This document shows, one piece after another, positions 17,027-45,717 of a stretch of 64,000 nt of DNA. The position numbers were made by a program, and so were the translations under genes. Below the pieces are notes generated by a model that did not search any database, was not told the DNA's origin, and was given only the letters and a program-made list of their open reading frames with translations. How positions within the stretch are numbered: position 1 is the stretch's first letter; each line of letters starts with the position of its first letter. This DNA is from Gammaproteobacteria bacterium (GTDB lineage Bacteria > Pseudomonadota > Gammaproteobacteria > Burkholderiales > Sulfuricellaceae), in contig JAHJGO010000012.1 of NCBI GenBank assembly GCA_018824405.1, positions 1-64,000 on the forward strand, read 5' to 3'.

Positions 17027-17027
17027 A

Positions 17028-28916: not shown

Positions 28917-29227
28917 TTGGCAGCGACCTCGCCGCCCGCTGCCTTCCAACCCTCGATGCCGCCTTCGATATAGCGCGCCTTGAGGCCTTTGGCCTGCAAT
29001 GCATCCACCACGCCATTGCTGACCGATCCGCCGCGCACGCAGTAGAGCACGATGTCTCGGTCTTTCGGCAGACTGCCGGCCCATTGTTCCAGCTGCACGG
29101 GATCGTGCCAGCTTGCGCCGGGCACCTGCTCGCTGGAAGCATCCAGATCGGCTTTGCGGCGCACGTCGATGATGTGCGTTACGGACAGTTGCCGCTGCAG
29201 CATTTCGGACTTGATCGTGCGTTCCAT
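28913..29227 (-). CDS. Rhodanese-domain protein
   Basis: This 104-residue single rhodanese domain includes IIDVRRKADLDA, PGASWHDP, and the active-site loop YCVRGGSVSNGVVDAL with the catalytic cysteine. It ends ARYIEGGIEGWKAAGG. Rhodaneses transfer sulfane sulfur. There is no signal peptide. It lies between chrA (9-base gap) and the ChrB-like gene, a recurrent arrangement in proteobacterial chromate operons. The active-site loop C-V-R-G-G-S is longer-charged like GlpE or thiosulfate sulfurtransferases. A link to thiol redox stress from chromate is inference. Confidence 0.87.
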   Translation of the reverse strand: MERTIKSEMLQRQLSVTHIIDVRRKADLDASSEQVPGASWHDPVQLEQWAGSLPKDRDIVLYCVRGGSVSNGVVDALQAKGLKARYIEGGIEGWKAAGGEVAAK

Positions 29228-29236
29228 GATATTTCC

Positions 29237-30583
29237 TCACATAAACTGGCTATAGATCAGCCCCAGTAGGGCGCAAACACCGATTACCTTCATGATGTCG
29301 GCCTTGTATTTCCACAAGGCGACGAAGGAAGCAATAGCGATAACCACCGGCAGCCATTCGAAAGTACCGGAGAAAGGCGCTTCCGCCGTACCCTGCGGCC
29401 AGAATGAATGCCAGGCAAAAAACACTGCCAGGTTGACGATCACCCCCACCACGGCGGCGGTAATCCCAGTCAGCGGAGCGGAAAACTTTATCTCGCCACG
29501 TGTTGCCTCCACCACCGGCCCGCCCGCCAGAATGAACATGAAGGAAGGCAGGAAGGTGAAGAAAGTTGCCACTGCCGCACCGGCAAGGCCGCCGGCAATC
29601 GCATTGCCGCCGAAAGCATCCTTGGCGACGCCACCCAGATAGCCGACCCAGGTGACGATCATGATCAGCGGCCCCGGCGTGGTTTCGCCCAGTGCCAGTC
29701 CATCCATCATCTGCGGGCCAGTGAGCCAGCCGAAATGCTCCACTCCGCCCTGATACACATAGGGCAGAACAGCATAGGCACCGCCAATGGTGAGAAAGGC
29801 GGCCTTGGTGAAAAACTCGCCCATGTTGTAGAGATCGGGCACGCCCTGCAGCGCCAGCATGGCGCCCAGCCAGACCAGCACGAAAGCGCCGACTATGATA
29901 ACCAGCCTGACCCAGGTAAAACGGGCATGCGCGGGCGGAGGCGTGTCGTCGTCAATAATTGCCGGACCGTATTCCTTGCCGGCTGAGCCGTGCCCGCCAC
30001 CTGACTTGAATTTACCCGGCAGGAATTTACCGCCAATGGCGCCCAGAATCGCCGCAGCCAGCACAATCCACGGAAAAGCAATCTTGAAATACAGGATGCC
30101 GAAAAAAGCCAGCGCGGCCATCCCCCACAGCACCTCATTCCTGAGCGCGCGGCTGCCGATGCGCCAGGCAGCGAACAGCACCACTGCCACTACTGCAGGC
30201 TTGATTATGTAGAAAACCCCCTGCACCGCTGGCAGATTGCCATAATTGAGATACAAGCCCGCCAGCAGCGAAAGCAGCACAAATGCCGGCAAAAAAAACA
30301 GCACCCCGGCGACAATCGCGCCGCGCACCCCATGCATCAGCCAGCTGATGTAAATGGCCAGCTGAATGGCTTCCGGGCCTGGCAACAACATGCAGTAGTT
30401 GAGCGCATGCAGATAGCGGTGCTCTGAAATCCAGCGGCGCTTTTCCACCAGTTCCTGGTGCATCATGGAAATCTGCCCTGCCGGTCCGCCGAAGCTGATG
30501 AAACCGAGTTTCAGCCAGTATTTGAAAGCCTCGCCAAGCGACACTGGCGCAGGTGGAAGCAGGTTTTCCTTGTTTTCAGACAT
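29237..30583 (-). CDS. chrA: Chromate transporter ChrA (CHR family, bidomain)
   Basis: This 448-residue CHR-family membrane protein is made of two homologous halves. The N-terminal half has GFISFGGPAGQISMMHQELVE, RYLHALNYCMLLPGPEAIQLAIYISWLMHG. The C-terminal half has FFTKAAFLTIGGAYAVLPYVYQGG, LALGETTPGPLIMIVTWVGYLGG. Both halves carry the G-G-[PA] and PGP motifs. ChrA expels chromate using membrane potential. The upstream ChrB and downstream rhodanese support this role. Some CHR proteins in autotrophs have been reported to transport inorganic carbon, and this gene is divergent from a carbon-uptake cluster, so that alternative should be kept in mind. Confidence 0.9.
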   Translation of the reverse strand: MSENKENLLPPAPVSLGEAFKYWLKLGFISFGGPAGQISMMHQELVEKRRWISEHRYLHALNYCMLLPGPEAIQLAIYISWLMHGVRGAIVAGVLFFLPAFVLLSLLAGLYLNYGNLPAVQGVFYIIKPAVVAVVLFAAWRIGSRALRNEVLWGMAALAFFGILYFKIAFPWIVLAAAILGAIGGKFLPGKFKSGGGHGSAGKEYGPAIIDDDTPPPAHARFTWVRLVIIVGAFVLVWLGAMLALQGVPDLYNMGEFFTKAAFLTIGGAYAVLPYVYQGGVEHFGWLTGPQMMDGLALGETTPGPLIMIVTWVGYLGGVAKDAFGGNAIAGGLAGAAVATFFTFLPSFMFILAGGPVVEATRGEIKFSAPLTGITAAVVGVIVNLAVFFAWHSFWPQGTAEAPFSGTFEWLPVVIAIASFVALWKYKADIMKVIGVCALLGLIYSQFM

Positions 30584-31552
30584 TTATTTTCCCTCTTCTC
30601 CATAAACTGCATACAAATCGTCAAATATCTTTGAAGCATCGGCCAGCAGTGCATCGTCATCTGCGCAGCGCTTCCTTATGCCACCCAGAATCATTTCGAC
30701 CCCGGACGCCTCCATTACCGGCATGCCGCCAACATCCAGGTTATGCACCAGCGCCCCCAGTTTCGCCAAGGCAGGATCCCCTTCCAGGCCGAAGCTTGCC
30801 AACAGCACCTCGAACGACACCAAATTGCCGATATGGGTAAATTCCGCGCCATCAAAATCAAAACCCAAAGCCTCCGGCGGGCAATCATCGGGCTTTTCCA
30901 GCCACAGGAAACGGGCATCCCGATCAATGAAGCGGCGAATCAGCCAGGCGCTGGCCATGCGATCCACCCACAGATGCTTGCGCGTAGCCCACAAGCGCTG
31001 CTGGTATTCAGGCGCTTCACGCTGCCTCACCTCGCCACCTCCGGCTTGCGGCTCATCTGCGGCAAGACTGGCAAAAAATGCCGCCTCCGCCTGCGCCAGC
31101 ATGGCGTCGGCCTCCACCTTTCCGCTACTCGAAAAATAATCCAGCGTCACCAGCGCCTCAAAATCCCGCGACAAAACCTTGAGTTGACGCCGCCCTGCAG
31201 TGGCATCCAGCGCCCCGAGGGTGGCAATGAACTCGTTTATGCGCTCCATCAGTTTTTGATATTCGTCACTGCGATCGAACAAGCCCTGAAAATCGGTTTT
31301 TTCTTCAACAGAAGGATTGGCCACATTCAACAGGTAGGCATTACCGCCGCCCTGCTTGATTTCCTCCGCGTGCATGCGTAGCGCCTGACGCAACCCACGC
31401 CCGGCCGGCAGCAGGTAAACACCATCGCGCAATACAGCACATCCCAGCGCCCTGGTCGCACGCCAGATACGCATGCGCAAGGTTGCATTGGAAGCTGGCA
31501 GGCTGACCACCAGAACAAGCCATTTGTCTGCGCTATAAGAAGAAAACTTCAT
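30584..31552 (-). CDS. chrB: Chromate resistance protein ChrB
   Basis: This protein of about 322 residues has an N-terminal winged-helix-like ChrB_N region (WLVLVVSLPASNATLRMRIWRATRALG, conserved core) and a C-terminal Chrom_resist domain (KHLWVDRMASAWLIRRFIDRDA, then FDGAEFTHIG). ChrB is described as a chromate-responsive regulator of the chr operon. ATG 31552 is chosen over TTG 31561 because a GGGAG ribosome site lies about 9 bases upstream. It is the first gene of a five-gene minus-strand operon and abuts chrA without a gap. Confidence 0.9.
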   Translation of the reverse strand: MKFSSYSADKWLVLVVSLPASNATLRMRIWRATRALGCAVLRDGVYLLPAGRGLRQALRMHAEEIKQGGGNAYLLNVANPSVEEKTDFQGLFDRSDEYQKLMERINEFIATLGALDATAGRRQLKVLSRDFEALVTLDYFSSSGKVEADAMLAQAEAAFFASLAADEPQAGGGEVRQREAPEYQQRLWATRKHLWVDRMASAWLIRRFIDRDARFLWLEKPDDCPPEALGFDFDGAEFTHIGNLVSFEVLLASFGLEGDPALAKLGALVHNLDVGGMPVMEASGVEMILGGIRKRCADDDALLADASKIFDDLYAVYGEEGK

Positions 31553-31580
31553 GGTCGCCAACTCCCTTTATTTGCAAACA

Positions 31581-31742: not shown

Positions 31743-33533
31743 TTGGAAAACTGCCCTTCCTGCAAGCTTTGGCTCTTCCGCGTCTTTCCCTTCCTGCGCT
31801 GGTGGCCGATGGTCGACCGCGACTCCACAAAAGCAGACCTGATTTCCGGCATCACCGGGGCGATGATCGTATTGCCGCAAGGCGTTGCCTTCGCCACCAT
31901 CGCCGGCATGCCGCCCGAATACGGCCTTTACGCCGCCATGGTGCCGGCCATCATCGCCGCCCTGTTCGGCTCGAGCTGGCACCTGGTCTCCGGACCCACC
32001 ACCGCGATTTCAATTGCAGTCTTTGCTGCCGTTAATAATTTCGCCGAGCCCGGATCACCCCAGTTTGTCAGCATGGTATTGACGCTGACCTTTCTTACCG
32101 GCCTGTTTCAGCTCATTCTGGGTCTGGCGCGCATGGGCGTGCTGGTCAACTTCATTTCCCACACCGTGGTGATCGGCTTTACCGCCGGCGCGGCATTGCT
32201 CATCGCCGCGAGTCAGGTGAAAAGTTTTTTTGGCATAGCAATTGAGCGTGGAGCACATTTCCACGTCGTAATCGAACAACTGATTCTACAGATCGGCAAC
32301 ATCAATCCCTATGTCGCAACAGTGGGCACAGTCACCCTGGTGGTGGGCATATTGTCGAAACGTTTCATTCCCAAACTACCCTACATGATCGTGGCCATGG
32401 TGGTTGGCAGCATTCTGGCCTATCTGATGAATCTGGAATTCGGCGCCGCGGTCACCAAGATCAAGACCGTTGGTGCCCTCCCGTCCCACTTGCCGCCGCT
32501 TTCCATGCCTGATTTTTCCTATTCCACCATTCACAAGGTTCTGTTCCCCGCCCTGGTGGTTACCATGCTGGCCCTCACGGAAGCAGTATCCATTGGGCGC
32601 TCCATCGCGATCAAATCGGAGCAGCGCATTGACGGTAACCAGGAATTCATCGGACAGGGTTTATCCAATCTGATTGGCAGCTTCTTCTCGGGCTACGCTT
32701 CCGCCGGCTCCTTTAACCGCAGCGGCGTGAACTACTCTTCCGGTGCGAGAACGCCACTGGCCACGGTATTCGCCTCGGTTTTCCTGCTCCTGATTCTGCT
32801 GCTGGTAGCCCCACTCGCATCCTACCTGCCTACCGCCGCAATGGCCGGCATCCTGTTCCTGGTTGCGTGGGGACTGATCGACTTTCATCACATCGTTTCC
32901 ATTGGCAAAACCAGCAAAGCCGAAACCGTGGTGTTGTGGGTGACCCTGCTCGGCACTCTGGTTGACCTGGAGAAGGGAATTTTCTTTGGCATCCTGCTTT
33001 CCCTCACCCTCTATCTCTATCGCGTTTCCAGGCCAGCCATTGCCCCGGAAGTTCCAGCCAAAGAGGAAGGCGCATACCATCTCATGGATGCCCATGGCCA
33101 TCACGAATGCCCGCAATTCCGCATCGTGCGCATCAACGGTTCGATTTTCTTCGGCGCCGTCGATCACGTGCAGAGCAGCCTGATCCAGATCGATGAAGCC
33201 AATCCGGATCAGAAAACTGTGATGATCGTTGCCAGCGGCATCAATTTCATTGACGTGGCAGGTGCGGAAATGCTGGCCCAGGAGGCACGTCGCCGACGCA
33301 AGCTTGGCGGCGGTCTGTATTTCTACCGCTGCAAGGATTCCATCCGCAAATTCCTGCGAAAATCCGACAAGCTTGACGATATCGGCGAAGGCGGCTTCTT
33401 CCCCGCCATGTCGAACTGGATTCATCCAATTTACGACACGCTTAACCCTGAAATCTGCCGCAACTGCAAATACCGCATCTTCAGCACATGCCATGAGCGT
33501 CTGCCAGGTGGAGAACCGAGAACCGAACCATGA
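31743..33533 (+). CDS. SulP-family anion transporter with STAS domain
   Basis: This 596-residue transporter begins (TTG start; an in-frame TAA at 31722 limits extension) with a short tail containing CPSC. The 14-helix SulP domain includes GAMIVLPQGVAFATIAGMPPEYGLYAAMVP and LVSGPTTAISI. A C-terminal STAS domain follows (residues about 455-545: FRIVRINGSIFFGAVDHVQ, VASGINFIDVAGAEML). The extreme C-terminus has a cysteine set CRNCKYRIFSTC. SulP proteins carry sulfate, bicarbonate or other anions. Overlap (ATGA) with a carbonic anhydrase-like gene and the downstream DabA cluster make bicarbonate the favoured substrate. Confidence 0.9.
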   Translation: MENCPSCKLWLFRVFPFLRWWPMVDRDSTKADLISGITGAMIVLPQGVAFATIAGMPPEYGLYAAMVPAIIAALFGSSWHLVSGPTTAISIAVFAAVNNFAEPGSPQFVSMVLTLTFLTGLFQLILGLARMGVLVNFISHTVVIGFTAGAALLIAASQVKSFFGIAIERGAHFHVVIEQLILQIGNINPYVATVGTVTLVVGILSKRFIPKLPYMIVAMVVGSILAYLMNLEFGAAVTKIKTVGALPSHLPPLSMPDFSYSTIHKVLFPALVVTMLALTEAVSIGRSIAIKSEQRIDGNQEFIGQGLSNLIGSFFSGYASAGSFNRSGVNYSSGARTPLATVFASVFLLLILLLVAPLASYLPTAAMAGILFLVAWGLIDFHHIVSIGKTSKAETVVLWVTLLGTLVDLEKGIFFGILLSLTLYLYRVSRPAIAPEVPAKEEGAYHLMDAHGHHECPQFRIVRINGSIFFGAVDHVQSSLIQIDEANPDQKTVMIVASGINFIDVAGAEMLAQEARRRRKLGGGLYFYRCKDSIRKFLRKSDKLDDIGEGGFFPAMSNWIHPIYDTLNPEICRNCKYRIFSTCHERLPGGEPRTEP

Positions 33534-34090
33534 TCCGAAAAAACCCCAGCGGCGATTTGCCGCTCATCCACGAATCCGCTTATGTGGACAACACTGCCAT
33601 ACTCTGCGGCAAAATCATCGTGGAAGAAAACGTCTTTATCGGACCCTACGCAGTGATCCGGGCCGATGAAGTCAACGAAAATGGTGAGATGGACCCTATT
33701 ATCATCGGCGCCAACTCCAATATCCAGGATGGCGTGGTCATCCACTCCAAAGCGGGCGGCCTGGTCAAAATCGGGGCAAACACTTCCATTGCACACCGTT
33801 CCATCGTGCATGGCCCGTGCGTCGTAGGTGAGAATGTATTTATCGGCTTCAACTCGGTACTATTTGACTGCGTGGTCGGCAATGGCTCGGTGGTGCGGCA
33901 TAACTCGGTTGTGGAGCACTGCGAAGTCCCGGAAAGTTTCCATATCCCCTCCACCACCAATGTTCATTCCAATCAGGAGCTGAGCAACATCACCCAGGTT
34001 TCGGCACAGGCCAGCGATTTTTCCGAATCCGTGCTGAAAGCCAATCTCGAACTGGTAAAAGGGTACAAAAAATTGCAAAACGAGTTCTGA
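33530..34090 (+). CDS. Gamma-class carbonic anhydrase-like protein
   Basis: This 186-residue left-handed beta-helix (hexapeptide-repeat) protein has the residues of gamma carbonic anhydrases. Arg44 and Asp46 are in VIRADE, Gln in NIQDGVVIH, and the three zinc-ligand histidines are at about 72, 89 and 94 (VVIHSKAGG, SIAHRSIVHG). The 17-residue spacing between the first two histidines resembles the CamH subgroup, while a longer loop (EVNENGEMDP) follows the RAD motif. The C-terminal helix (residues 150-186) is typical. It would interconvert CO2 and bicarbonate in the cytosol. It is translationally coupled to the SulP gene. Confidence 0.87.
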   Translation: MIRKNPSGDLPLIHESAYVDNTAILCGKIIVEENVFIGPYAVIRADEVNENGEMDPIIIGANSNIQDGVVIHSKAGGLVKIGANTSIAHRSIVHGPCVVGENVFIGFNSVLFDCVVGNGSVVRHNSVVEHCEVPESFHIPSTTNVHSNQELSNITQVSAQASDFSESVLKANLELVKGYKKLQNEF

Positions 34091-34261
34091 TTTAACAGTT
34101 AGGCTTGCAGCGGATTTAACCTGGATTTAACGCTAAATTAACCATGCATATATCTTTATAAGGCGTTTCTATCCAATAAACCCATGCTCCCTGTTATTAT
34201 TACCGGCTTTATCTGTTTGCCAGAATCAGTTAAATAAACCGTCATTTCCGGGGTAAGCACC

Positions 34262-36376
34262 ATGAATCAAATCGCTCGTTTTCTGCCTTTCCTGAGCTGG
34301 TTTCCATCCAGCAGGGAAAATATCAAAGCAGACCTGATCGCGGGCCTCACCGTTGCACTGGTGCTTATCCCACAATCCATGGCTTATGCTCAGCTGGCCG
34401 GCTTGCCTGCCTACTACGGCCTGTACGCCGCGTTCCTGCCAGTCATGGTCGCCGCCATGTGGGGCTCCTCGGCCCAGCTTGCCACCGGTCCAGTGGCTGT
34501 GGTTTCGCTGCTGACCGCTTCGGCGCTGGCGCCTCTTGCCGCTGTCGGATCGGAGCAATTCGTTGCCCTGGCCATCCTGCTTGCCCTCCTGGTCGGCTGT
34601 ATTCAGCTTCTGCTCGGACTGTTCAAGCTCGGCGTGATCGTCAACTTTCTCTCCCATCCTGTCATCGTCGGCTTTACCAATGCTGCTGCCATCATTATCG
34701 GCCTGTCCCAGCTCAACAAGATTTTCGGCGTATCGATGGGGCGCAGCGAACATTTCATCAACGACATCTGGGGCGTTGTGCTACAGATCGGCGACACTCA
34801 CATCCCCACACTGATTATGGGCGTCTCGGCCTTCGCCATCATGTGGGGCCTGAAGAAATATCTGCCCAAGCTGCCGGGCGTGCTGATCGCCGTGGCCATT
34901 ACCACCGTGGTGAGCTTTGCCATCAGCTTCGAGCAGAACGCCAAGGTCAAAATTGACCAGTTGATGGACCCCGATGTACTCGACGTGGTCGAACGCGTTT
35001 CACAGACCGACGATCGGATCGTCAGCCTCAATAACCAGATCACAACCCGTTCCGCCCGCATCAAAACGCTGGAAAAAGAACCAGGTGACAATGACCGCCT
35101 GATCGCCGCCCTGCACTACGAAATCGAACTCTTGCAGGGAACGCAGGTTGATGTTGAAGACGAAAACCGCAAGGCGCAGCGCACGGCACGAAAATTCGTA
35201 CTGGAAATGGTCCCCGCCAGCACCACTGATTCTGCCAGGCTCTATCTGAAAAGCCACGTTCCGGATGGCGCGACAACAGACGGCCACCGCTGGCGCATCA
35301 AGAAAATCAAAGACGGCGAGCTCAAGCTTTCAGGCGGAGGCGAAGTGGTTGGCGGCATTCCCTCGGGCCTGCCCGAAATGGCAGTACCGAAACTGAACTG
35401 GGAGAACGTGATGACCCTGCTCAGTAGCGCCCTGGTGATCTCGCTGGTCGGCTTTATGGAAGCCATTTCCATCGCCAAGGCCATCGCTGCCAAGACCAAG
35501 CAGCGCCTCGACCCAAGCAAGGAACTGGTTGGCCAGGGCATTGCCAACATCGTCGGGAGTATGAGCCAGGCTTTCCCGACCTCAGGCTCGTTCTCGCGCT
35601 CGGCGGTCAACATGAACGCCGGCGCCAAGACCGGCATGTCCTCGGTTTTCACTGGCCTGATCGTACTGGTTACCTTGCTGTTCCTTACGCCGCTGCTGTA
35701 CCACCTGCCGCAGGCCGTGCTGGCCGCAGTAATCATGATGGCAGTGATCGGCCTGGTTAATTTCAAGGCCATCAAGCACGCCTGGCATGCGCACAAGCAT
35801 GATGGCGCTGCCGCCATTGTCACTTTCGTGGCCACTTTGGCCTTTGCGCCCCATCTCGACAACGGCATCATGGTCGGTGCCGGACTCGCCATCATTCTTT
35901 ACCTCTATCGCACCATGTCGCCGCGCGTTGCCATTCTTGGCCGCTACGAGGATGGCACCCTGCGCGACATCAGCGTGCACAAGGACCTGCCGACCGACGA
36001 AAACATCATCGTGTTGCGCTTCGACGGCTCACTGTATTTCGCCAACGTGCCGTTCTTCGAGGATGCCATTCTGGAAGCCGCCGCCAACAAGCCGAATGCG
36101 AAATACCTCGTAGTGGTGGGCGATGGCATCAACGAACTTGACGCCTCCGGCGAGGAAGTCATTCACCACCTGGTGGAGCGCCTTCACAGTATCGGCATGA
36201 TCATGGTATTCACTGGCCTGAAGAAACAGGTGCTCGACGTCATGCGCCACACCGGCCTGTTCGAACTGATCACCCAGAACAACATCTTTGCTACCGAAGC
36301 ACAGGCCTTTGAAGCCATTTACAACTGCCTGGGTACGAATGAAGGTGCGTTCTGCCAACTCCGCCGTCAGACATGA
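34262..36376 (+). CDS. SulP-family anion transporter with a coiled-coil insertion
   Basis: This 704-residue second SulP protein has transport motifs LTVALVLIPQSMAYAQLAGLP, YYGLYAAFLP and the C-terminal STAS domain (VLRFDGSLYFANVPFFEDA, VVGDGINELDASGEE). Unlike the first SulP it carries an extra soluble segment at about residues 222-363, inserted in the membrane domain. That segment includes a heptad-like stretch (VERVSQTDDRIVSLNNQI and following) and ends before the conserved helix ALVISLVGFMEAISIAKAI. It sits 43 bases before the antiporter/DabA block, in the same direction. Substrate is likely bicarbonate or sulfate. Confidence 0.88.
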   Translation: MNQIARFLPFLSWFPSSRENIKADLIAGLTVALVLIPQSMAYAQLAGLPAYYGLYAAFLPVMVAAMWGSSAQLATGPVAVVSLLTASALAPLAAVGSEQFVALAILLALLVGCIQLLLGLFKLGVIVNFLSHPVIVGFTNAAAIIIGLSQLNKIFGVSMGRSEHFINDIWGVVLQIGDTHIPTLIMGVSAFAIMWGLKKYLPKLPGVLIAVAITTVVSFAISFEQNAKVKIDQLMDPDVLDVVERVSQTDDRIVSLNNQITTRSARIKTLEKEPGDNDRLIAALHYEIELLQGTQVDVEDENRKAQRTARKFVLEMVPASTTDSARLYLKSHVPDGATTDGHRWRIKKIKDGELKLSGGGEVVGGIPSGLPEMAVPKLNWENVMTLLSSALVISLVGFMEAISIAKAIAAKTKQRLDPSKELVGQGIANIVGSMSQAFPTSGSFSRSAVNMNAGAKTGMSSVFTGLIVLVTLLFLTPLLYHLPQAVLAAVIMMAVIGLVNFKAIKHAWHAHKHDGAAAIVTFVATLAFAPHLDNGIMVGAGLAIILYLYRTMSPRVAILGRYEDGTLRDISVHKDLPTDENIIVLRFDGSLYFANVPFFEDAILEAAANKPNAKYLVVVGDGINELDASGEEVIHHLVERLHSIGMIMVFTGLKKQVLDVMRHTGLFELITQNNIFATEAQAFEAIYNCLGTNEGAFCQLRRQT

Positions 36377-36419
36377 TTTTCTTGCGGCCCATCTGAGCAA
36401 AGTTAAGCTTTAACCCCGC

Positions 36420-37871
36420 ATGTTAAGAGCGCTTTTCCTCCTCCCCATTGTGGGCGCGGTCATTATTGCCCTGCTACCGGGGAGCAATCCGCGCCTGATC
36501 CGTTTCGCCGCCTTGCTTGCGTCGGGTGCAGCCATGGGCTTGGCGTGGGGATTGCTGGGCGTGTTCGACCCTGCCCTAGCTGGCGTCCAGCTGTTCGAAA
36601 CCCATGTCTGGAACCCGCGCCTGGGCAGTGCATTCTCACTGGGCGTGGATGGTTTTTCCTTCCCCATGGTGCTGCTGGGAACCCTGCTCACCGTAGTCAC
36701 AATTCTTGCCTCCAATTGCATCACCAAGCGTGTCAAGGGCTATTACGCACTGATCCTGCTGCTGGAATCTGGCATGCTGGGCGTGTTCATGGCACGCGAC
36801 TGGTCTCTGTTCTACGTTTTCTGGGAACTGACCCTGATTCCGCTATTCTTCCTCATCGACCGCTGGGGTAGCGAAAACAAGCACCGGGCCGCACTCAATT
36901 TTGTGCTCTATACCATGGGCGGCTCGGTGTTCATGCTGGTCGCCCTGCTGCTGTTGTACGATGCCAATCCCGGCCACAGCTTCGATGTCGCCTCCATCGC
37001 CCAGGGAGCCCGGAGCCTGTCACAGGAAGCGCAAATTTTAATTTTCCTCGGTCTGCTGATCGGTTTCGGCGTCAAGGTTCCCATTTTTCCGCTTCACGGC
37101 TGGCTTCCCCTGGCCTATGTGGAAGCACCCAGCCCGATACCCATCCTGCTTTCCGGCATTCTCGCCAAGATGGGCAGCTACGGCCTGATCCGCGCCGCCG
37201 AAATGCTGCCCCTGGCGGTACAGGCGCTGCAAGGCTGGCTTGCCGCACTGGGCATGATCAGCATGATTTACGGCGGCGTGCTGGCATGGCACCAGCGCGA
37301 CCTGAAAAAGATGGTGGCTTATTCCTCCATGTCGCACATGGGTGTGGTATTGCTGGGCATTGCCACGCTGAATGAGGCCGGGCTCACCGGAGCAGTAATG
37401 CAGATGGTGGCGCACGGCCTGGTGGCCGGTTCACTGTTCCTGCTGATCGGACTCCTGTATGAACGCACGAATACCCGCGACATCGCGGAATTCAGCTCAC
37501 TGGTACAGGTCATGCCGCGCTTCGCTTTTTTTACCGTACTGGCACTGGTTGCAGCAGTAGGTTTCCCCGGTACGGCAGGCTTCATTGCGGAGGTTCACGT
37601 TCTGATCGGCGGCTTTGCGCGCTGGAGCGGCTGGGTCATCATTCTGTCCATGAGCGTGCTGATCAGCGCCGCATACGCTTTCAGGACCGTAGGACGCCTG
37701 TTCACCGGACCGGTACGCGAGGAAATGCGCCTGATTCCCGACCTCGGCCGTGCCGAATTTGCTGCAGTGAGTGTGCTGGCCAGCGGCATTCTGCTGGTGG
37801 GAATATTTCCTACCACCGTACTGGGACTGATTTCAGCTTCGGTCAGACAATTGAGCAAGGTGTTTGGCTGA
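36420..37871 (+). CDS. NuoM/MrpD-like proton-translocating subunit, first of three
   Basis: This 483-residue membrane protein of the complex I antiporter family (proton_antipo_M) has 14 predicted helices. The residues used for proton transfer are conserved: Glu in VFWELTLIPLF, Lys in FGVKVPIFPLHGWLP, Lys in GILAKMGSYGLIR and Glu in GFIAEVHVLIG. Complex I genes are absent nearby. One base separates its stop from the DabA start, so it is part of the DabA transcript. I infer that it adds an ion channel to a DabA-type inorganic-carbon pump rather than serving NADH oxidation. Confidence 0.88.
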   Translation: MLRALFLLPIVGAVIIALLPGSNPRLIRFAALLASGAAMGLAWGLLGVFDPALAGVQLFETHVWNPRLGSAFSLGVDGFSFPMVLLGTLLTVVTILASNCITKRVKGYYALILLLESGMLGVFMARDWSLFYVFWELTLIPLFFLIDRWGSENKHRAALNFVLYTMGGSVFMLVALLLLYDANPGHSFDVASIAQGARSLSQEAQILIFLGLLIGFGVKVPIFPLHGWLPLAYVEAPSPIPILLSGILAKMGSYGLIRAAEMLPLAVQALQGWLAALGMISMIYGGVLAWHQRDLKKMVAYSSMSHMGVVLLGIATLNEAGLTGAVMQMVAHGLVAGSLFLLIGLLYERTNTRDIAEFSSLVQVMPRFAFFTVLALVAAVGFPGTAGFIAEVHVLIGGFARWSGWVIILSMSVLISAAYAFRTVGRLFTGPVREEMRLIPDLGRAEFAAVSVLASGILLVGIFPTTVLGLISASVRQLSKVFG

Positions 37872-37872
37872 C

Positions 37873-40800
37873 ATGAACACAGACAATCACAGCAAGGACA
37901 TTCGCAGCCGCCTGCACGACCTGATTCATCATTTCGAACATGTCCTGCCGTCTCAGGGGCCAATCAAGGACTTCGTCCACCACAATACGCTCCATGGTTT
38001 CCAGCATTTACCCTTCGCACAAGCGCTTGCTACCGCACGCAAACTGACCGGTGCTCACGGCTATCTGCCGGAAGAGCGCTACCGTAGCTGGTTCGCCGAA
38101 GGGCGCATCAATCATGATGACCTGACAGCAGCACTGGACAGCATGGCGCAGATCGACGCAGCCGCTGTCGTAGTTGAAACGGCGCATGGCCCCCTGCACC
38201 GCAGGGACATACTCCTACCCGAACTGCTGCATTCTTTCAAACGCCTGTCGCGTAGCCAGCTCAAATGGCAAGTAGAGGAACTGCATGCCCTGGAATCTTT
38301 CCAGGCCACAGTCGAACAAAGTGCCCGAGCCCGCCTTCTTGCTACGGCCGGCACAAATGACGAAAAAATCGCCCTGGCTGAATTATGGTCTGCCTGCCTG
38401 GAAACCCTGGGGCTGGAACATGAGCTGCGCCATCCGGAAGAGTTGCTCAACCCCTCCCCTGACCATGTTGAAGCTCTGGCATCTCGAATTGCAGCCGAAA
38501 CCGGACAGGCCGATGAAGGCACTCTGGCCGCCCGACTGATCCGCAAGGATGCCGCACATCTGCTCGACACCCTGCTGGAGAAGGTCGGCAGTGAATGGAC
38601 GCTGCGCGGTCTGCTCATATCACTCACCGGAGAGGATCTGCTGGATGAAGTGAGGCCGCTGCTGATTCGCCATCTGGCTGCCCATCTCGATCAGGGCATG
38701 GCTGCCTGGCACAACCCGGGACAGAAGAAAGGCTTTTACGCCGCCTGGCGTGAAAGCGCAGGAAATGATCTGGCCTGGGTGCTGAACGATCTTTCCGACT
38801 GGCGCACGTTTGCCGAACGCCTGCCCGACGACCCGCTCGACACCATCATCCAGGAGTTGCGCCTGTTCGGCTTGCCGGAAGAGCGCTGGGAAGCTTATCT
38901 GGAACGGCTCGCACTGGAAATTCCCGGCTGGTCAGGGATGGCTCTGTGGCGGCATAACCATCCAGGCTACGGCGGCATGACCACCCCGGTGAACATGATG
39001 GATTATCTCGCGGTGCGACTGCTGCTTGAGCGCATCTTCGCCCAGCGCCTGTGCCGCCGCCACTGGCGCGTTGAAGCCACCCTTTCGGCGCTGCGCTGGT
39101 ATTTCCGTCATCTCCCGGCAGAGCTGGTAGTGCGCCACGCACTTTTTGAGGGCCGTTTGCCGGAATACCTCATCAGCTTCGCTGAACAACTCACGCGCGA
39201 AGCCCCCAACCGCAAGGAAAACATTCACGACGAAGGCTGGCAAACCATGGCCCAGCTTTTGTGGAGCTGGCAGCAGACCCCCGCTGCGGACAGGCGCGAT
39301 GGCGTCAGCGTATCGGGTTCGGCCTGGCCGCTATTTTGTCTCGCACAACATCTCGGGCTGGCGGGACGCGACATTTCGACGATGGGACGTTCTGGTGCAG
39401 ATGCATTGCTGCATTGCCTCAACCTGCTGGATAGCGACCAGCGTGGCCACATCTGGCTGCTGGCTTACGAACGCCATTACCGCGAGCAGATATTTACTGC
39501 ACTGAAGGCTAATCATGGCCGTGGGCCATGGATGACGCGAGACCCCCTGCCAGAAGCCCAGCTGGTTTTCTGCATGGATGATCGTGAAGAAGGATTGCGC
39601 CGTCACCTGGAAGAAATCAATCCACAGCTTGAGACCCTGGGAGCCGCAGCACATTTCGGCATTTTCATGAACTGGCGCGGGCTTGACGACGAGGAAGCCG
39701 GCCCGCTGTGCCCGGTCGTGCCGGTAGTCATCATCCCCGCCCACGAAGTCAGGGAAACCGAACAACCGGGGCAGGAACTACAGCGCAGCGAGCATGACCG
39801 GCGACATTCCCTGCGCATGCGATGGGTAAAACGACTGCACCAGAATACGCGCCGCGGCCTGATCGTGCCTGCACTGATCTCGGCCGCCGCAGCACCGGCG
39901 GCCCTCGCCGTGCTGGGCGGCAAACTGCTTGCCCCGGCACGCCTGGGACAATGGGCAAAGAAAATCAGCACCGCCTTTGAGCAGACGGTTTCAACCCAGG
40001 TGCTCATATCCGCTCCCGCCGACAGCCCTGCCGCAACACCGGAAGCACCACGTCTGGGCTTTACCGACAGCGAGCAGGTTGAACGAATTTATGGTTTTTT
40101 GCGCAACATCGGTCTGACTACAGGCTTTGCACCGCTGGTGGTCATCGCCGGCCACGGCTCCAATAGCCAGAACAACCCGCACCTGGCCGCATACGACTGC
40201 GGGGCCTGCTCAGGCCGCCACAGCGGCCCGAATGCCCGGGTGTTCTCTGCCATTGTAAATCGGAGTGAAATACGTGTCCTGCTTGCCGAACGCGGCATTA
40301 GCATCCCCGACACCACGTGGTTTGTTGCGGCAGAGCATAACACCTGCGACGACACTGTCATCTGGTATGACGAAGACCGTATTCCAGAAGCGTTGCAACC
40401 CGCTTTCAGCCAGCTCAAGCAGGAGGTTGCACAAGCCTCGCGCCAGCACGCCCAGGAACGCTGCCGCCGCTTCGCCTCCGCGCCAGACAATCCTGGCATC
40501 CAGAAAGCCTGGCGTCATATCCAGAACCGCCGCCACGATTTTTCCCAGGCACGCCCAGAACTGGGCCATGCCACCAATGCCTGCGCCTTTTTCGGGCGCC
40601 GCTCCATGAGTCGCGGGGCCTTTTTCGACCGGCGTGCATTCCTGATTTCATACGACACAACCATCGATCCGGAAGGCCTGATCCTGGAGCGCCATCTCCT
40701 GATCAACGGCCCGGTGGGCGCCGGCATCGCGCTGGAGTATTACTTCTCCATGGTGGATAACGACTACTATGGCTGCAGCACCAAGATCATGCACAATGTT

Positions 40801-41178
40801 TCCGGCCTGCTTGGCGTCATGGAGGGCGCGTCATCCGACCTGCGCACCGGGCTGCCACGCCAGATGATCGAAATCCATGAACCCATGCGCCTTCTGGTAG
40901 TGGTGGAAGCCAAAACCGAGCTGGTCACAGCCATTTACCAGCGCCAGCCGGCACTGCAGGAGCTGGTCGGAAAAGAATGGGTAGTCGTTGCCGCAAAGGA
41001 TCCGGACAGCGAGGACATTCAGCTCTTCGACCCTGTCCGGGGCTGCTGGCTGCCCTGGCAGGGTGGTGCGGAACCCCTGCCTACGGTTGAGCGTTCACTA
41101 GACTGGTTCAGCAACCAGCGTGAGCCATTACCACCAGCACTATTGCAGCGACCGGTTGCACTGGGGGACGGGGCATGA
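37873..41178 (+). CDS. dabA: DUF2309 protein, DabA-like inorganic-carbon uptake subunit
   Basis: This protein has about 1101 residues. DabA is the cytosolic, carbonic-anhydrase-like half of the two-component DAB inorganic carbon pump. The predicted zinc site is conserved: Cys567 and Asp569 in LVFCMDDREEG, His761 in IAGHGSNSQNNPH and Cys776 in YDCGACSG. The C-x-D and H-x14-C spacings match the family. It is longer than the roughly 800-residue DabA of Halothiobacillus, with a long N-terminal helical region starting HHFEHVLPSQGPIKDFVHHNTLHGF (conserved core HHNTLHGF). The ATG at 37873 is used; a TTG at 37864 overlaps the previous gene. It overlaps dabB by four bases. Confidence 0.92.
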   Translation: MNTDNHSKDIRSRLHDLIHHFEHVLPSQGPIKDFVHHNTLHGFQHLPFAQALATARKLTGAHGYLPEERYRSWFAEGRINHDDLTAALDSMAQIDAAAVVVETAHGPLHRRDILLPELLHSFKRLSRSQLKWQVEELHALESFQATVEQSARARLLATAGTNDEKIALAELWSACLETLGLEHELRHPEELLNPSPDHVEALASRIAAETGQADEGTLAARLIRKDAAHLLDTLLEKVGSEWTLRGLLISLTGEDLLDEVRPLLIRHLAAHLDQGMAAWHNPGQKKGFYAAWRESAGNDLAWVLNDLSDWRTFAERLPDDPLDTIIQELRLFGLPEERWEAYLERLALEIPGWSGMALWRHNHPGYGGMTTPVNMMDYLAVRLLLERIFAQRLCRRHWRVEATLSALRWYFRHLPAELVVRHALFEGRLPEYLISFAEQLTREAPNRKENIHDEGWQTMAQLLWSWQQTPAADRRDGVSVSGSAWPLFCLAQHLGLAGRDISTMGRSGADALLHCLNLLDSDQRGHIWLLAYERHYREQIFTALKANHGRGPWMTRDPLPEAQLVFCMDDREEGLRRHLEEINPQLETLGAAAHFGIFMNWRGLDDEEAGPLCPVVPVVIIPAHEVRETEQPGQELQRSEHDRRHSLRMRWVKRLHQNTRRGLIVPALISAAAAPAALAVLGGKLLAPARLGQWAKKISTAFEQTVSTQVLISAPADSPAATPEAPRLGFTDSEQVERIYGFLRNIGLTTGFAPLVVIAGHGSNSQNNPHLAAYDCGACSGRHSGPNARVFSAIVNRSEIRVLLAERGISIPDTTWFVAAEHNTCDDTVIWYDEDRIPEALQPAFSQLKQEVAQASRQHAQERCRRFASAPDNPGIQKAWRHIQNRRHDFSQARPELGHATNACAFFGRRSMSRGAFFDRRAFLISYDTTIDPEGLILERHLLINGPVGAGIALEYYFSMVDNDYYGCSTKIMHNVSGLLGVMEGASSDLRTGLPRQMIEIHEPMRLLVVVEAKTELVTAIYQRQPALQELVGKEWVVVAAKDPDSEDIQLFDPVRGCWLPWQGGAEPLPTVERSLDWFSNQREPLPPALLQRPVALGDGA

Positions 41179-42728
41179 ATGGCCTGCTCGAACTGGCTCC
41201 GCAACTGGCCTGGCTGATTCCTCTTCTGCCCTTGCTGGCCGCGGCCGGGATTGCGCTTCGCATCCTCAGCGGACACGACAAGGGGGATGGTGCAGAGCCG
41301 CCTAGTGCGCGTATCGCCATTTACTGCGCCGGTGCCGCCCTGTTGCTGCTGCTCGGCCTGGACGTACTTGCTCTTGGCTGGGGAGTGCCGGGTCAGGTGC
41401 GTAGCGGTATCTGGTTCACCAGTGGCGCCATCGTCCTGCCCATCAGCTTTACCCTTGATGCGCTGTCGCTATCCATCGCCACGCTGGTCGCCTTCATTGC
41501 CACCCTCACGCTGATTTTTTCACGCAACTATCTGCACCGCGAACTCGGTTTCCACCGCTTTTTCTTCGGAATGAGCCTGTTCACCGCCGGCATGCTGCTG
41601 ATCGTCCTGGCTGGCAATGTGGCGCTGACCTTTGTCGGCTGGGAGCTGGCGGGCGTCAGTTCCTGGATGCTGATCGGCTATGCCTATGAACGCCCAACCG
41701 CCACCAGCAATGCACTGCGCGCCATTGTCACCAACCGTATCGGTGACGCCGGTTTCATTCTCGGCATTTCACTGGCATTCATCTGGCTCGGCACCGTGGA
41801 ATGGCCCGCCCTGCTCCATGCCAACCGCCTTGGGACACTCTCCGCCGGTCTGCTTGCGCTGGGTTTCGTAGTGGCAGCACTGGCCAAGTCGGCACAAGTA
41901 CCGTTTTCACCCTGGATTGCCCGCGCGCTGGAAGGCCCGACCCCTTCCTCGGCGATTTTTTACGGCGCACTGATGGTTCATGCCGGAGTGTTTCTGCTGA
42001 TTCGCATGGAACCGCTTCTGCGACAGGCACCCGCGCTGATGTCGCTGATCGCAGTGCTCGGCCTGCTCACCGCACTCTATGGCTATTTCAGCGGGCTTAC
42101 CCAGACCGACGTAAAAAGTGCGTTGATGTTCGCCACCACCACTCAGGTCGGGCTGATGTTTATCGCCTGCGGGCTGGGCTGGTTCACGCTGGCAGCCTGG
42201 CATCTGGGATTGCACGCCAGCTGGCGCGCCTACCAGTTTCTTGCCTCGCCTTCCTACATGCACCTGATGGGCGGCCCCACCCGTGCCGCTCCGGCCTGGC
42301 TGCACAACAAACAACGACTTTACACCGCCGCACTGCAACGCTTCTGGCTGGAGCAATTAAGTGACTGGCTACTGGTACGACCCACTCAGCAACTGTCACG
42401 GGACATTCGCAATCTGGATGACAATGTGGTGAGCCGCCTGGTCGGCCTGCCTGACTCTGCAGTCGTTTCGGCCTTCATGGTGGCGAGCGGCGAAGAAAAA
42501 AACCAGGACAAGGTCGTCCGCGGCAGCGGTCTGGCGGGCGCTTTTCTGGAATGGCTCGCACTCAAGTTGCACCGTTTTGAATCGCGTCTCCTGTTCCAGG
42601 ATGGCGATAGCAGACTCGGACGCATTCTGGCAAGAATTGGCAGCTATCTGGTGGCGGTGGAAGGCCTGCTTTCGCAGCCGCGTTACCTGCTGCTGATAAT
42701 CATGGCAACCCTGGTGGTGATTCTGTAA
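41175..42728 (+). CDS. dabB: DabB-like NuoL-family membrane subunit
   Basis: This 517-residue NuoL/MrpA-type antiporter subunit is the usual membrane partner of DabA. It has Glu in FVGWELAGVSSWMLIGYAYE, Lys in VAALAKSAQVPFSPW and the histidine of FYGALMVHAGVFLLIRM, as in NuoL. The C-terminal region (residues about 340-517) lacks the long lateral helix of NuoL and has a segment WHLGLHASWRAYQFLASPSYMHLMGG (core SYMHLMGG) seen in DabB-like proteins. It overlaps genes on both sides, so it is translationally coupled to dabA and to the next NuoM-like subunit. Confidence 0.88.
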   Translation: MNGLLELAPQLAWLIPLLPLLAAAGIALRILSGHDKGDGAEPPSARIAIYCAGAALLLLLGLDVLALGWGVPGQVRSGIWFTSGAIVLPISFTLDALSLSIATLVAFIATLTLIFSRNYLHRELGFHRFFFGMSLFTAGMLLIVLAGNVALTFVGWELAGVSSWMLIGYAYERPTATSNALRAIVTNRIGDAGFILGISLAFIWLGTVEWPALLHANRLGTLSAGLLALGFVVAALAKSAQVPFSPWIARALEGPTPSSAIFYGALMVHAGVFLLIRMEPLLRQAPALMSLIAVLGLLTALYGYFSGLTQTDVKSALMFATTTQVGLMFIACGLGWFTLAAWHLGLHASWRAYQFLASPSYMHLMGGPTRAAPAWLHNKQRLYTAALQRFWLEQLSDWLLVRPTQQLSRDIRNLDDNVVSRLVGLPDSAVVSAFMVASGEEKNQDKVVRGSGLAGAFLEWLALKLHRFESRLLFQDGDSRLGRILARIGSYLVAVEGLLSQPRYLLLIIMATLVVIL

Positions 42729-44242
42729 TGATGGTGAACGAAATACACTGGACCCAGCAGGCAGCATATCCCATTCTCGGCATGCTGCAACTGGTTCCCC
42801 TGCTTGGCGCCGGACTGCTGCTGCTCCTTGGCGAAAGGCGCGACTCTGTTGTCATCGGCCGCGGTATTGCACTGATCGAACTGCTGCTGGCGATCGACCT
42901 GTTCCGCACTATCAAGGCCGATTCCCCCGCCCTGCAACTTTCCGAAAAGCTGGTCCTGCTCGACCCCTTTACCTACCATGCTGCGGCTGATGGCGTCACT
43001 GTGCTGTTTGTCCTGCTCACCGCGCTGGTGGTACTGCTGCTCACGATCTACAGCCTGGTGCGCGGGCTGGCCGAACCTGCGCGCCTGCTGGCAGTTATTC
43101 TGGCGGTAGAGGGTGTCCTGATGTCACAACTGGTGACCACCAACCTGCTTTGGTTCGCGCTCGCCTCTCTGCTGGAACTGGGCCTGGTCGGCTACCTGTT
43201 GTGGAACTGGGCTACTTCACCGGAAAAAGACACCATGCTGGCACGCTTTTACCAGTTCCAGGGTACCGGCCTGCTGCTGCTGGTCATGGGCACCATGCTG
43301 CTGGGCTGGTTCCATGCCGAGGCCACCGGGGGCAACTGGAGTTTTGACCTGGCTGACCTGAGCACCGTCCAGGTCGGCGGTGCAGTCGGCTCGGTGGTCT
43401 TTTTCTCGCTGCTTTACGGCATGGGCATCCGCACCCCGATCTTTCCACTGCACGGCTGGCTGCCCTTGGTGGCGCAGCACGGCAATGTCGCCATTGCCCC
43501 CGTTCTTCTGCTCGGCATCAAGGTCGGCATATACGGCCTGATCCGTTTCGTATTTCCCATCGTGCCGGGCGCGGTGGTGCAGTGGCACACCTTTGTCGTT
43601 GCGTTTGCAGCCGCGGGCGTATTCTATGCCGCCTTCCTGGCCTTTTTGCAAAGCGATTTGCGCCGCCTGATGGCTTTTGCCGTCGTGAGCCACACCAGCC
43701 TTTTGATTATTGGCCTGTTCTCCCTTCACGCCGAGGGCTTCCAGGGCAGCATCCTGCTGGCAGTCAATTTCGGTCTCGCCATGACGGTCATGCTGTTCAT
43801 TGTCGGCTTTGTCTATCGACGCACTCGCACCACCGTGCTCGACCAGCTGGGCGGCCTGTTCGACCGAATTCCTTTCATCGGCGCAAGCTTCCTGCTTGGC
43901 GGCCTGGCCATCGTGGGCATGCCCGGCACACCCGGCTTCGATGCCGCTCATCTGGTACTGGAAGCCTCCATCGAACGCCTTGGCGCCCTGCTTACCGTGG
44001 CCGTGGCGCTGGGCAACGTGGTGGCTGCAGGCTTCCTGCTGTGGGCCTTCCAGCGCGCCTTCCTTGCCCCGCGCAACGAAAGCTCCAGATTCGGCACCAT
44101 TGAGCGCACCCTGCCTATGGAATATCTGGTGGCCGGCAGCGCCGTGGCTGTTCTGCTCATCGCCGGTTTCTACCTCGAACCCTGGATGAAACTGATCGAA
44201 GCGCCACTCCATGTGCTTGCTGAGAGATTTGCACACCCATGA
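42728..44242 (+). CDS. Divergent NuoM-like subunit, second of three, with altered charged residues
   Basis: This 504-residue protein of about 14 helices is in the same antiporter family. The core GMGIRTPIFPLHGWLPLVAQHG aligns with the GVKVPIFPLHGWLPL core of the neighbours, but the key lysine is an arginine. Lys in LLGIKVGIYGLIR is kept. The helix-12 glutamate (GF[IP]AE in the other two) is replaced, reading GTPGFDAAHLVLEA. A glutamate in SLLELGLVGYL is present. The start ATG overlaps the dabB TAA by one base. It may be structural, or a channel with modified coupling. Confidence 0.85.
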   Translation: MMVNEIHWTQQAAYPILGMLQLVPLLGAGLLLLLGERRDSVVIGRGIALIELLLAIDLFRTIKADSPALQLSEKLVLLDPFTYHAAADGVTVLFVLLTALVVLLLTIYSLVRGLAEPARLLAVILAVEGVLMSQLVTTNLLWFALASLLELGLVGYLLWNWATSPEKDTMLARFYQFQGTGLLLLVMGTMLLGWFHAEATGGNWSFDLADLSTVQVGGAVGSVVFFSLLYGMGIRTPIFPLHGWLPLVAQHGNVAIAPVLLLGIKVGIYGLIRFVFPIVPGAVVQWHTFVVAFAAAGVFYAAFLAFLQSDLRRLMAFAVVSHTSLLIIGLFSLHAEGFQGSILLAVNFGLAMTVMLFIVGFVYRRTRTTVLDQLGGLFDRIPFIGASFLLGGLAIVGMPGTPGFDAAHLVLEASIERLGALLTVAVALGNVVAAGFLLWAFQRAFLAPRNESSRFGTIERTLPMEYLVAGSAVAVLLIAGFYLEPWMKLIEAPLHVLAERFAHP

Positions 44243-45717
44243 CAAACATGCCACTGCTCAGCCTGCTATTCCTCACCCTGCCGCTCGGCGCCGCACTCAC
44301 CTGGCTGCTGCCGCGTCCGGAATGGGCCAAGCGCATCGCCCTGGCTACGGCACTGCTCGACCTGTGTTTTGCCCTGGCGGTGATCTACAGGTTCGACCCC
44401 AGCCAGCCCGGCTTCCAACTGGTGGAACAGGCGCGCTGGATTCCCACCCTCAACATTCAGTACATGGTCGGAGTGGACGGCATTTCCCTGCTGTTTCTGC
44501 CTGCCACCATCCTGCTATTCATCGGCGTCATCCTGGCTTCCTGGAACAGCGTGACCAAGCTACCGCGCCTGTATTACAGCCTGCTGCTGGTACTGGAAAC
44601 GGCCACCCTGGGTATTTTCTGTTCTCTCGACACCATGCTGTTCTTCTTCTTCTGGGAACTGTCGCTGATTCCGATCTATTTTCTGGTCAGCCTGTGGGGT
44701 GTAGGGCCAAACCGACGCTATGCGGCTGTCAAATACATCCTGGTGATGGTCGCTGGCGGGATTCCATTGCTATTTGGCTTCATCCTGCTCGCCTTCACTC
44801 ATGCGACAAGCGGGGGGGGCCTGGTATTTGATCTACCCACTTTGCTGGCAACACCGGTCCCCGCCCGGATGCAACTTGCGATTTTTATCCTGCTGCTGTT
44901 GGGGTTTGCCGTCAAGATTCCGGTTTTTCCGCTTCACACCTGGCTGCCCCTGGTGGCAATGGAAGGACCAGCGGCGGTCATCGCACTGCTGGTCGGTATC
45001 AAACTCGGCGCCTACGGGCTGATTCGCTTTGCCATCCCGCTGGCGCCGCAAGCGGCGCAGCAGATGCATTGGCTACTGGTGGCACTGGGAACACTGGGGG
45101 TGATATACGGCGCGGTCGCCGCACTGGCCCAGACCAATCTGCGCCGTATGCTGGCCTATGCCAGCCTGTCGCATGTGGGCCTGGTGGTGCTTGGAATTGC
45201 CTCCTTCGACCTGCAGGGCTTGCAAGGTTCGGTACTGCAACTGCTCAATTTCACGCTAGCTGCAGGCGGTGGCTTCCTGCTTATCGGCGCCCTTCACCAC
45301 CGCATCGGCTCAACCGATCTTTTGAGCCTGGGTGGCGCAGCTCGCTCCATGCCATTGCTGGCAAGCTTTTTTCTGCTGTTTGGCTTCGCCGGCATGGGCA
45401 TGCCGGGAACCAGCGGCTTTCCAGCTGAATTGCTGATTCTGCTTTCGGCCTTCAAACACCATATCGGCGCAGGTCTTGCCGCACTGTTCGCCATGGTACT
45501 GGGTACAGCCTATTTTTTCAGTCTCTACCGCAAGGCCTTTTTTGGACCAGCCAACAATCCGGTAGTAGCCAGTGCCATGGACCTGCGACCACGTGAACTG
45601 GGTGTCGCCATAGTCTTTGCCTTCCTGATCCTGAGCGTTGGATTTTATCCATCAGCCGTGCTGGATGTGATCAAACCGGCTGGAGAAGCCTGGGTGACTC
45701 AGCTTCAGAAGCATTAA
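44239..45717 (+). CDS. NuoM-like proton-translocating subunit, third of three
   Basis: This 492-residue protein has the full NuoM set: Glu in FFFWELSLIPIYFLVSLWG, Lys in FAVKIPVFPLHTWLPLVAMEGP, Lys in LVGIKLGAYGLIRF, Glu in GTSGFPAELLILL. It closely resembles true NuoM. It overlaps the preceding gene by four bases (ATGA) and ends the operon, 41 bases before the convergent era stop. In this setting it is probably part of the carbon pump and not of complex I. Confidence 0.88.
   Translation: MTNMPLLSLLFLTLPLGAALTWLLPRPEWAKRIALATALLDLCFALAVIYRFDPSQPGFQLVEQARWIPTLNIQYMVGVDGISLLFLPATILLFIGVILASWNSVTKLPRLYYSLLLVLETATLGIFCSLDTMLFFFFWELSLIPIYFLVSLWGVGPNRRYAAVKYILVMVAGGIPLLFGFILLAFTHATSGGGLVFDLPTLLATPVPARMQLAIFILLLLGFAVKIPVFPLHTWLPLVAMEGPAAVIALLVGIKLGAYGLIRFAIPLAPQAAQQMHWLLVALGTLGVIYGAVAALAQTNLRRMLAYASLSHVGLVVLGIASFDLQGLQGSVLQLLNFTLAAGGGFLLIGALHHRIGSTDLLSLGGAARSMPLLASFFLLFGFAGMGMPGTSGFPAELLILLSAFKHHIGAGLAALFAMVLGTAYFFSLYRKAFFGPANNPVVASAMDLRPRELGVAIVFAFLILSVGFYPSAVLDVIKPAGEAWVTQLQKH

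Follow-up and report, generated by a model that had tools for sequence, protein, structure and literature searches.

The five-gene DabA cassette

We analysed a 64,000-nucleotide stretch of gammaproteobacterial DNA (hereafter the window), in which positions 36420-45717 carry a cassette of five packed genes in the order M1-DabA-L-M2-M3. We consider it likely that these genes encode a single five-subunit, proton-motive-force-coupled, CO2-hydrating complex, that is, a vectorial carbonic anhydrase of the DAB/DAC kind. The five genes, with lengths in amino acids (aa) where given, are the following.

36420..37871, plus strand: M1, a NuoM-like antiporter subunit (PF00361, TIGR01972)
37873..41178, plus strand: DabA, long class, ~1100 aa (PF10070, E 9e-238)
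41175..42728, plus strand: L, a NuoL-type subunit in the place of DabB (Proton_antipo_M, PF00361)
42728..44242, plus strand: M2, a divergent NuoM-like subunit (PF00361)
44239..45717, plus strand: M3, a NuoM-like antiporter subunit (PF00361, TIGR01972)

Against the NCBIfam models, M1 and M3 exceed the NuoM subfamily cut-off, M2 falls slightly under it (254.7 vs 263.8 bits), and the NuoL-type match of L lies under its own cut-off. A preliminary description of this DNA had placed eight genes on the plus strand, these five and three upstream of them; all of the open reading frames (ORFs) are indeed open, and their Pfam families match. The tight packing that it gave for 36420-45717, with 1- to 4-base overlaps or a 1-base gap, is confirmed at the junctions: DabA and L overlap by 4 bases, L and M2 by 1 base, and M2 and M3 by 4 bases. 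For DabA, the ATG at 37873 is the likelier start, leaving a 1-base gap after the end of M1 at 37871, while the longest ORF runs from the TTG at 37864, from which DabA residues are numbered here. As judged from these junctions, there is no space between the five genes for further complex I or Mrp genes, in agreement with the earlier statement that the cassette holds no other complex I genes. By the gene list of the locus and its packing, the NADH, Q-module and small membrane subunit genes of respiratory complex I are not encoded with the cassette, and the small Mrp subunits MrpB, C, E, F and G find no space between its genes either. An MrpA/D-like pair, assigned from similarity and length alone, is located on contig C3 of the host. 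The earlier epithet "Mrp-like" is therefore apt for the presence of several antiporter subunits and for nothing else.

Conservation and spread of the cassette

We examined 131 loci (L027-L040 and L102-L218). Because similarity to the window DabA guided the choice of these regions, and DabB-first loci were deliberately added as a contrast, counts over them are not prevalences. All five genes were recovered in 82 of the 131 regions, always on a single strand and in the order M1-DabA-L-M2-M3, a recurrence beyond chance, so that DabA and the four antiporter-type subunits stand as a conserved unit. A first filter had found 52 of 80 genome-collection loci complete, and a later rule was then used on all 131. 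The remaining loci divide into 31 that have a long DabA and were not counted as complete and 18 without a long DabA under the later rule. Removal of five duplicate loci leaves a non-redundant set of 77 cassettes, and counts out of 78 refer to these 77 plus the window. The four junctions measure 30 bp or less in 71, 71, 69 and 66 of the 77 cassettes.

The hosts are beta- and gammaproteobacteria and Magnetococcales; we rejected the claim that the cassette is confined to the lineage of the window host. At the order level, 89 of 399 genomes had a DabA match (E 1e-8 or better), and at the phylum level 68 of 398. Of these DabA-positive genomes, 17 and 36, respectively, carry the long class (~1100 aa; at least 44% identity, near full length or in pieces, read from match tables). 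The same order also has DabB-first loci, mostly with a shorter DabA, as well as the DabA-first loci L114, L115 and L116 described below. Among the phylum-level long-DabA regions from outside the class, 15 of 16 hold all five genes, the exception being G563 (L137), with DabA only. A scan of a species-genome collection gave at least 552 relatives among 595 stretches; the best 80 loci of these were retained, and their titles include Nitrosomonas, Nitrosospira, Nitrotoga, Thiobacillus, Thiodiazotropha, Competibacter, Methylobacter, Thiothrix and Magnetococcales. Cassettes are also found in records titled Methylobacter, Methylomicrobium and Crenothrix, which we take to be methanotrophs. The cassette is not a local oddity; it is conserved, and widespread among the samples seen.

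The zinc site and finger of DabA

The structurally described two-subunit pump DAB2 provides the reference for DabA. Its zinc ligands C351, H524 and C539, together with a D353-R355 dyad, are needed for function, and a finger helix of DabA inserts into DabB, where a change of Glu444 abolishes function (PMC13144422). In the window DabA, C570, D572, R574, H764 and C779 align with C351, D353, R355, H524 and C539 of DabA2 (9rd0_A). Across the long DabAs, C570, H764 and C779 are each conserved in 78/78, D572 in 77/78 and R574 in 76/78. The finger is another matter: the window hairpin (residues ~663-691) is hydrophobic and has no acidic residue, with A674 aligned to DAB2 Glu444, and position 674 is non-acidic in 60 of the 78 long DabAs, the Ala of the window included. 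The finger Glu is present in all 15 DabB-first DabAs (13 two-gene loci, plus the second DabA of L117 and of L118, which are preceded by a small ORF or a gap) and absent from all four other DabA-first cases (L114, L115, L116 and the second DabA of L199).

Channel residues of the antiporter-type subunits

M1 and M3 carry full antiporter residue sets: E136, K219, K250 and E391 of M1 are kept in 77, 77, 78 and 77 of 78 sequences, and E140, K226, K255 and E397 of M3 in 78, 78, 78 and 77. The corresponding places, Glu in transmembrane helix (TM) 5, Lys in TM7, Lys in TM8 and Glu in TM12, are the proton-path positions of complex I, and to judge by sequence both subunits resemble complete channels. 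M2 departs from this pattern, with Glu in 0/78 at both the TM5 and the TM12 place, Arg (R235) replacing the TM7 Lys in 78/78 and the TM8 Lys (K265) kept in 78/78; near the TM12 place it has D405 (77/78) and H408 (78/78). L keeps the TM5 Glu in 78/78 and the TM7 Lys in 77/78, with His at the TM8 position in 78/78.

L is also shortened. It matches NuoL 1-368 (hhalign E 3e-65) and resumes at NuoL 557-610, and the ~190 aa between NuoL 368 and 557 that are absent from it correspond to TM12-15 in our own labelling. A weak, independent phmmer match of L 361-426 to NdhF 553-616 agrees with this deletion. Past residue 343, the hydropathy profile of L has hydrophobic segments solely at 418-436 and 497-517, and in the structural model (predicted local distance difference test, pLDDT, 86.4) residues 392-422 form a helix of 31 residues, more helices follow up to the end of the chain, and confidence is low at 428-451. 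Foldseek returned NuoL as the top match for this model; with no DabB2 chain among the matches listed, the comparison does not separate NuoL from DabB for L. The earlier suggestion of extra ion channels per cycle is qualified by an L without the TM12-15 region and an M2 in which conserved channel residues are gone. From the loss of the finger acid in most members, the window included, and from the L deletion, the predicted proton route through DabA and L must therefore differ from that of DAB2.

Gene fusions and subunit phylogeny

L and M2 form one open frame in L177, L181 and L190 (3 of the 131 loci, with titles Contendobacter or Competibacteraceae). A fourth fusion genome, G836, has a 1045-aa ORF matching both L and M2, and the G960 fusion is the L181 genome again, 100% identical. 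Since they are fused in four genomes, L and M2 are probably in contact, and these natural fusions support the predicted physical complex. M1 and DabA share one frame in L164 (Competibacter phosphatis).

A quick maximum-likelihood tree was built from 115 antiporter proteins, each cassette slot being represented by the window and 16 of the 77 cassettes (17 rows). M1, L, M2 and M3 each form a single clade, with Shimodaira-Hasegawa-like approximate likelihood-ratio test (SH-aLRT) values of 100, 99, 100 and 98. M1-M3 group with complex I NuoM (SH-aLRT 99) as clades apart from it, with M2 beside M3 (94), and L joins the L proteins from other DabA-first loci (100), with the DabB clade (96) and NuoL (100) lying separately. 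By eye, groupings within the clades look alike across the slots, as is expected if the unit is inherited together. The L, M and N genes of the host complex I are on contig C12, each above its NCBIfam cut-off, and a three-gene complex-I-type PF00361 cluster lies away from the cassette in all six other cassette genomes tested (G063, G107, G319, G229, G322 and G443, with a family-level check on G063).

Proposed mechanism

We envision that DabA would bind and hydrate CO2 at a zinc site facing the cytoplasm, as its conserved residues suggest, with L, by homology and gene position, serving as a DabB-like docking partner. M1, M2 and M3 would be NuoM-type members of the same complex, and the gene fusions place L beside M2. 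Protons would probably be carried by M1 and M3. L retains the N-terminal half of the antiporter fold and has lost the TM12-15 region; M2 has lost N-half residues and retains the TM8 Lys and an altered TM12, and one of the neighbouring M subunits would probably complete the DabA/L route. Bicarbonate would be delivered to the cytoplasm of a host that has two RuBisCOs, at a guessed two to four protons per CO2. A more specific version can be put forward only tentatively, namely a complex-I-like proton-driven carbonic anhydrase in which DabA sits on a four-antiporter arm, L and M2 share a split proton path, M1 and M3 are complete channels, and ~3 H+ are used per CO2 vs ~1 in DAB2. The cytoplasmic half-channel would come from L and the periplasmic half from M2, an arrangement that is attractive because the losses in L (C-terminal half) and M2 (N-half residues) are complementary and the two are found fused. 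Either way, membrane energy is probably spent on CO2 uptake differently from the one structurally known pump.

Weighing the five-subunit reading against alternatives

Several observations weigh against the predicted five-subunit complex. Loss of the finger acid is not a rule of the class: 18 of the 78 long DabAs keep an Asp, some of them at loci whose record titles name Nitrosomonas, Nitrosospira, Nitrotoga and methanotroph genera, and complete class-wide loss was accordingly rejected. The DabA model (pLDDT 82.7) found no solved-structure match in a Foldseek comparison with the PDB (best E 0.18), and no 9rd0 chain was among the matches listed, in a PDB copy that may lack those entries; because Foldseek gave no match, we make no fold claim for DabA. 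The second L/NuoL segment is weak (hhalign E 0.002). As to the fusions, L181 and L190 are incomplete loci, which leaves L177 as the sole otherwise complete fused cassette among the 131, and in L181 DabA is separated from L by a transposase-type gene; the M1-DabA fusion, a single case beside duplicated DabA fragments, is given little weight. Some long DabAs also lack the whole cassette nearby, seven of them despite some room: L188 and L194 hold a solitary long DabA with zero antiporter genes in 8-9 kb on each side, L167 carries M1 only, L181 is without M1 and M3, L190 is without M3, L164 is without L, M2 and M3 in 2.7 kb downstream, and L137 has DabA alone within flanks of 4.1 and 2.9 kb. The other loci among the 31 not counted as complete comprise L151, L170 and L185, where all five genes are present and the coverage rule failed; L177, which has all five genes, L being joined to M2; L171, where a tandem duplicate is present and M3 is truncated at the end; L180, with only 1.2 kb upstream; and 18 further loci cut by a contig end.

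The alternative that survives best, which we nonetheless think unlikely, takes DabA and L as an ordinary two-subunit DAB and M1-M3 as a separate, co-transcribed Mrp-like antiporter serving, for example, pH/Na+ balance during bicarbonate accumulation. Two proteins suffice for DAB2 (PMC13144422), M1 and M3 have complete antiporter residue sets of their own, and M genes are missing near a few long DabA loci. Such a division is, however, at odds with the L-M2 fusions and with a gene order in which M1 precedes DabA and M2 and M3 follow L in 82/82 complete cassettes; the small Mrp subunits have no space, and with L lacking TM12-15 and the window finger lacking an acid, a stand-alone DAB2-type path would be incomplete. 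We regard as quite improbable a reversed direction, in which bicarbonate dehydration or another exergonic DabA reaction drives outward ion pumping, to which the cassettes in Methylobacter, Methylomicrobium and Crenothrix records, presumably from methanotrophs, would lend some colour. This direction was proposed in 2017, before the function of DabA was known (PMC5700660), but DAB relatives accumulate dissolved inorganic carbon (DIC), DAB2 is read as a vectorial CO2 hydration system (PMC13144422), and the window host has RuBisCO. We find it hardly credible that respiratory complex I uses the NuoM-like proteins as spare or alternative subunits, even with M1 and M3 above the NuoM subfamily cut-off, when M1, M2 and M3 adjoin DabA and form clades apart from complex I NuoM, the host encodes complex I L, M and N on another contig, and 6/6 other cassette genomes have a separate complex-I-type cluster, all in keeping with the preliminary description.

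Other arrangements of DabA genes

In L171 (Thiothrix sp.), 7481-21151 carries two long DabA and two L genes consecutively in one cassette. L115 (7592-12075) and L116 (5571-10005) are DabA-first with a single longer NuoL-type partner of 627-630 aa, and Gln replaces the finger Glu. L114 (G120:C13, 110-5716) encodes a DabA of 995 aa, an L of 440 aa and a very divergent antiporter-like protein of 433 aa (E 5e-8 to PF00361), which is possibly another way to complete the channel. L117 and L118 each have two DabA genes of different type within 12 kb, each with its own DabB-like partner.

Flanking genes and host setting

Three further genes precede the cassette on the same strand.

31743..33533, plus strand: SulP1, a SulP-family anion transporter with STAS domain, 596 aa (PF00916, E 4e-96; PF01740)
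33530..34090, plus strand: gamma-carbonic-anhydrase-like hexapeptide protein, 186 aa (PF00132)
34262..36376, plus strand: SulP2, a second SulP-family transporter, 704 aa (PF00916 in two stretches, STAS)

SulP1 is above the cut-off of TIGR00815 and far under that of the BicA model (NCBIfam). In SulP2, a ~130-aa stretch with a coiled-coil look splits the SulP domain at ~231-359. The 186-aa protein has CcmM (NF053794) as its top NCBIfam match, at 125.9 bits against a cut-off of 550, and possesses a His plus a His-x4-His motif, which we take to be the ligand motif. The sharing of one locus by SulP and gamma-carbonic anhydrase, pointed out earlier, holds for the window and not in general: within the fetched flanks, the gamma-carbonic-anhydrase-like gene (>150 bits) is present in 3 of 77 cassette regions, while SulP is a frequent neighbour, 19 of 65 testable regions having one on the same strand no more than 1.5 kb upstream of M1. 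A general complex with gamma-carbonic anhydrase as a part was rejected on the former count.

Upstream, the opposite strand encodes a chromate transporter and ChrB proteins; downstream, it carries era-like and RNase III genes. At 28509-31561 (minus strand), the divergent chromate-transporter gene (PF02417) and two ChrB_C genes adjoin the DIC cluster. Bicarbonate carriage has been reported for a Chr-family protein (PMC10880623); because of the ChrB neighbours, we favour chromate as the substrate here.

The window is contig C18 of a 3.03-Mb host genome that is 99% complete. Two RuBisCO large-subunit genes of the host are both above the NCBIfam cut-offs. Profile searches with working controls found no beta-carbonic anhydrase (Pro_CA) and no bacterial microcompartment (BMC) shell gene in the host; alpha-carbonic anhydrase was outside the search and the CsoSCA control was silent. 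Because RuBisCO is present and neither Pro_CA nor a BMC shell was found, the cassette and the gamma-carbonic-anhydrase-like gene may be important bicarbonate sources for the host.

Comparison with known systems

As far as we found, what is known of the proton path driving a one-way carbonic anhydrase rests on a single two-subunit structure, that of DAB2. The present cassette keeps the zinc site, has lost the finger acid in most sampled members and part of the DabB-like channel, and adds three antiporters; it thereby offers a direct test of where the protons go and of whether subunit number sets stoichiometry, a question open for complex I too. By record titles, the genera bearing it are presumably ammonia oxidisers, nitrite oxidisers, sulfur oxidisers and methanotrophs, and because it occurs in such organisms, it may be of importance to the carbon supply of major chemolithotrophs, as well as to engineered bicarbonate uptake. 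Schmid 2021 reportedly tested complexes of one to three subunits. Our literature search, with most subscription journals outside its coverage, turned up no functional work on a DabA complex that has three members of the NuoM type, and no five-subunit DAB is described in the available portions of PMC10880623, PMC12628692, PMC9080137 and PMC7784846. The preliminary description likewise knew of no functional account of such a locus. In outline, the layout was already in print in 2017, along with the idea about subunit number, before the function of DabA was known (PMC5700660).

DAB2 of Halothiobacillus neapolitanus (DabA2-DabB2, PDB 9rd0) shares with the cassette the DabA family, the zinc-site residues and a NuoL-superclade membrane partner encoded beside DabA, and differs in having two subunits rather than five (PMC13144422). 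DabB precedes DabA in the compared DabB-first loci, whereas DabA precedes L in the window. The finger Glu444 of DabA2 contrasts with the Ala of the window DabA. DabB2 has 15 TM helices, with TM12-14 around the finger (PMC13144422), a stretch missing from L, and the TM5 Glu of L (78/78) stands against Ile151 of DabB2, an equivalence drawn via alignment to the host NuoL. Segments 95-142, 162-175, 187-229, 415-461, 466-481, 517-526 and 1078-1103 of the window DabA are missing in more than 70% of the shorter-class DabAs used for comparison. More than two proteins also take part in DabA-based CO2 uptake in DAB1 of H. neapolitanus and other three-subunit DACs; the third protein of DAB1, unlike M1-M3, is a small hypothetical membrane protein and not an antiporter (PMC13144422). 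In the COGNAT "clade C" ybcC operons of 2017, ybcC (DabA) precedes a nuoL homologue, and SulP and NuoM-type genes often lie nearby, as here (PMC5700660). Their function was then not known, outward ion pumping was proposed, and the hypothesis was stated that ion number is set by how many membrane subunits there are; the available part of that account is without NuoM number or order, slot orthology, fusions, the finger residue or the L deletion (PMC5700660).

The membrane arm of complex I (NuoL/M/N) has one NuoL-type and several NuoM-type subunits, as does the cassette, and L keeps a segment like NuoL 557-610, before the last helix. In contrast to complex I, the cassette has no redox modules or other membrane-arm genes, and DabA would replace the peripheral arm. 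The cyanobacterial NDH-1 CO2-hydrating complexes are driven by electron transfer and use unrelated Cup proteins. The cassette differs from them in having no electron-transfer subunits; common to both would be a CO2 hydration tied to a membrane complex of the NADH-dehydrogenase type (PMC10880623), as we propose here.

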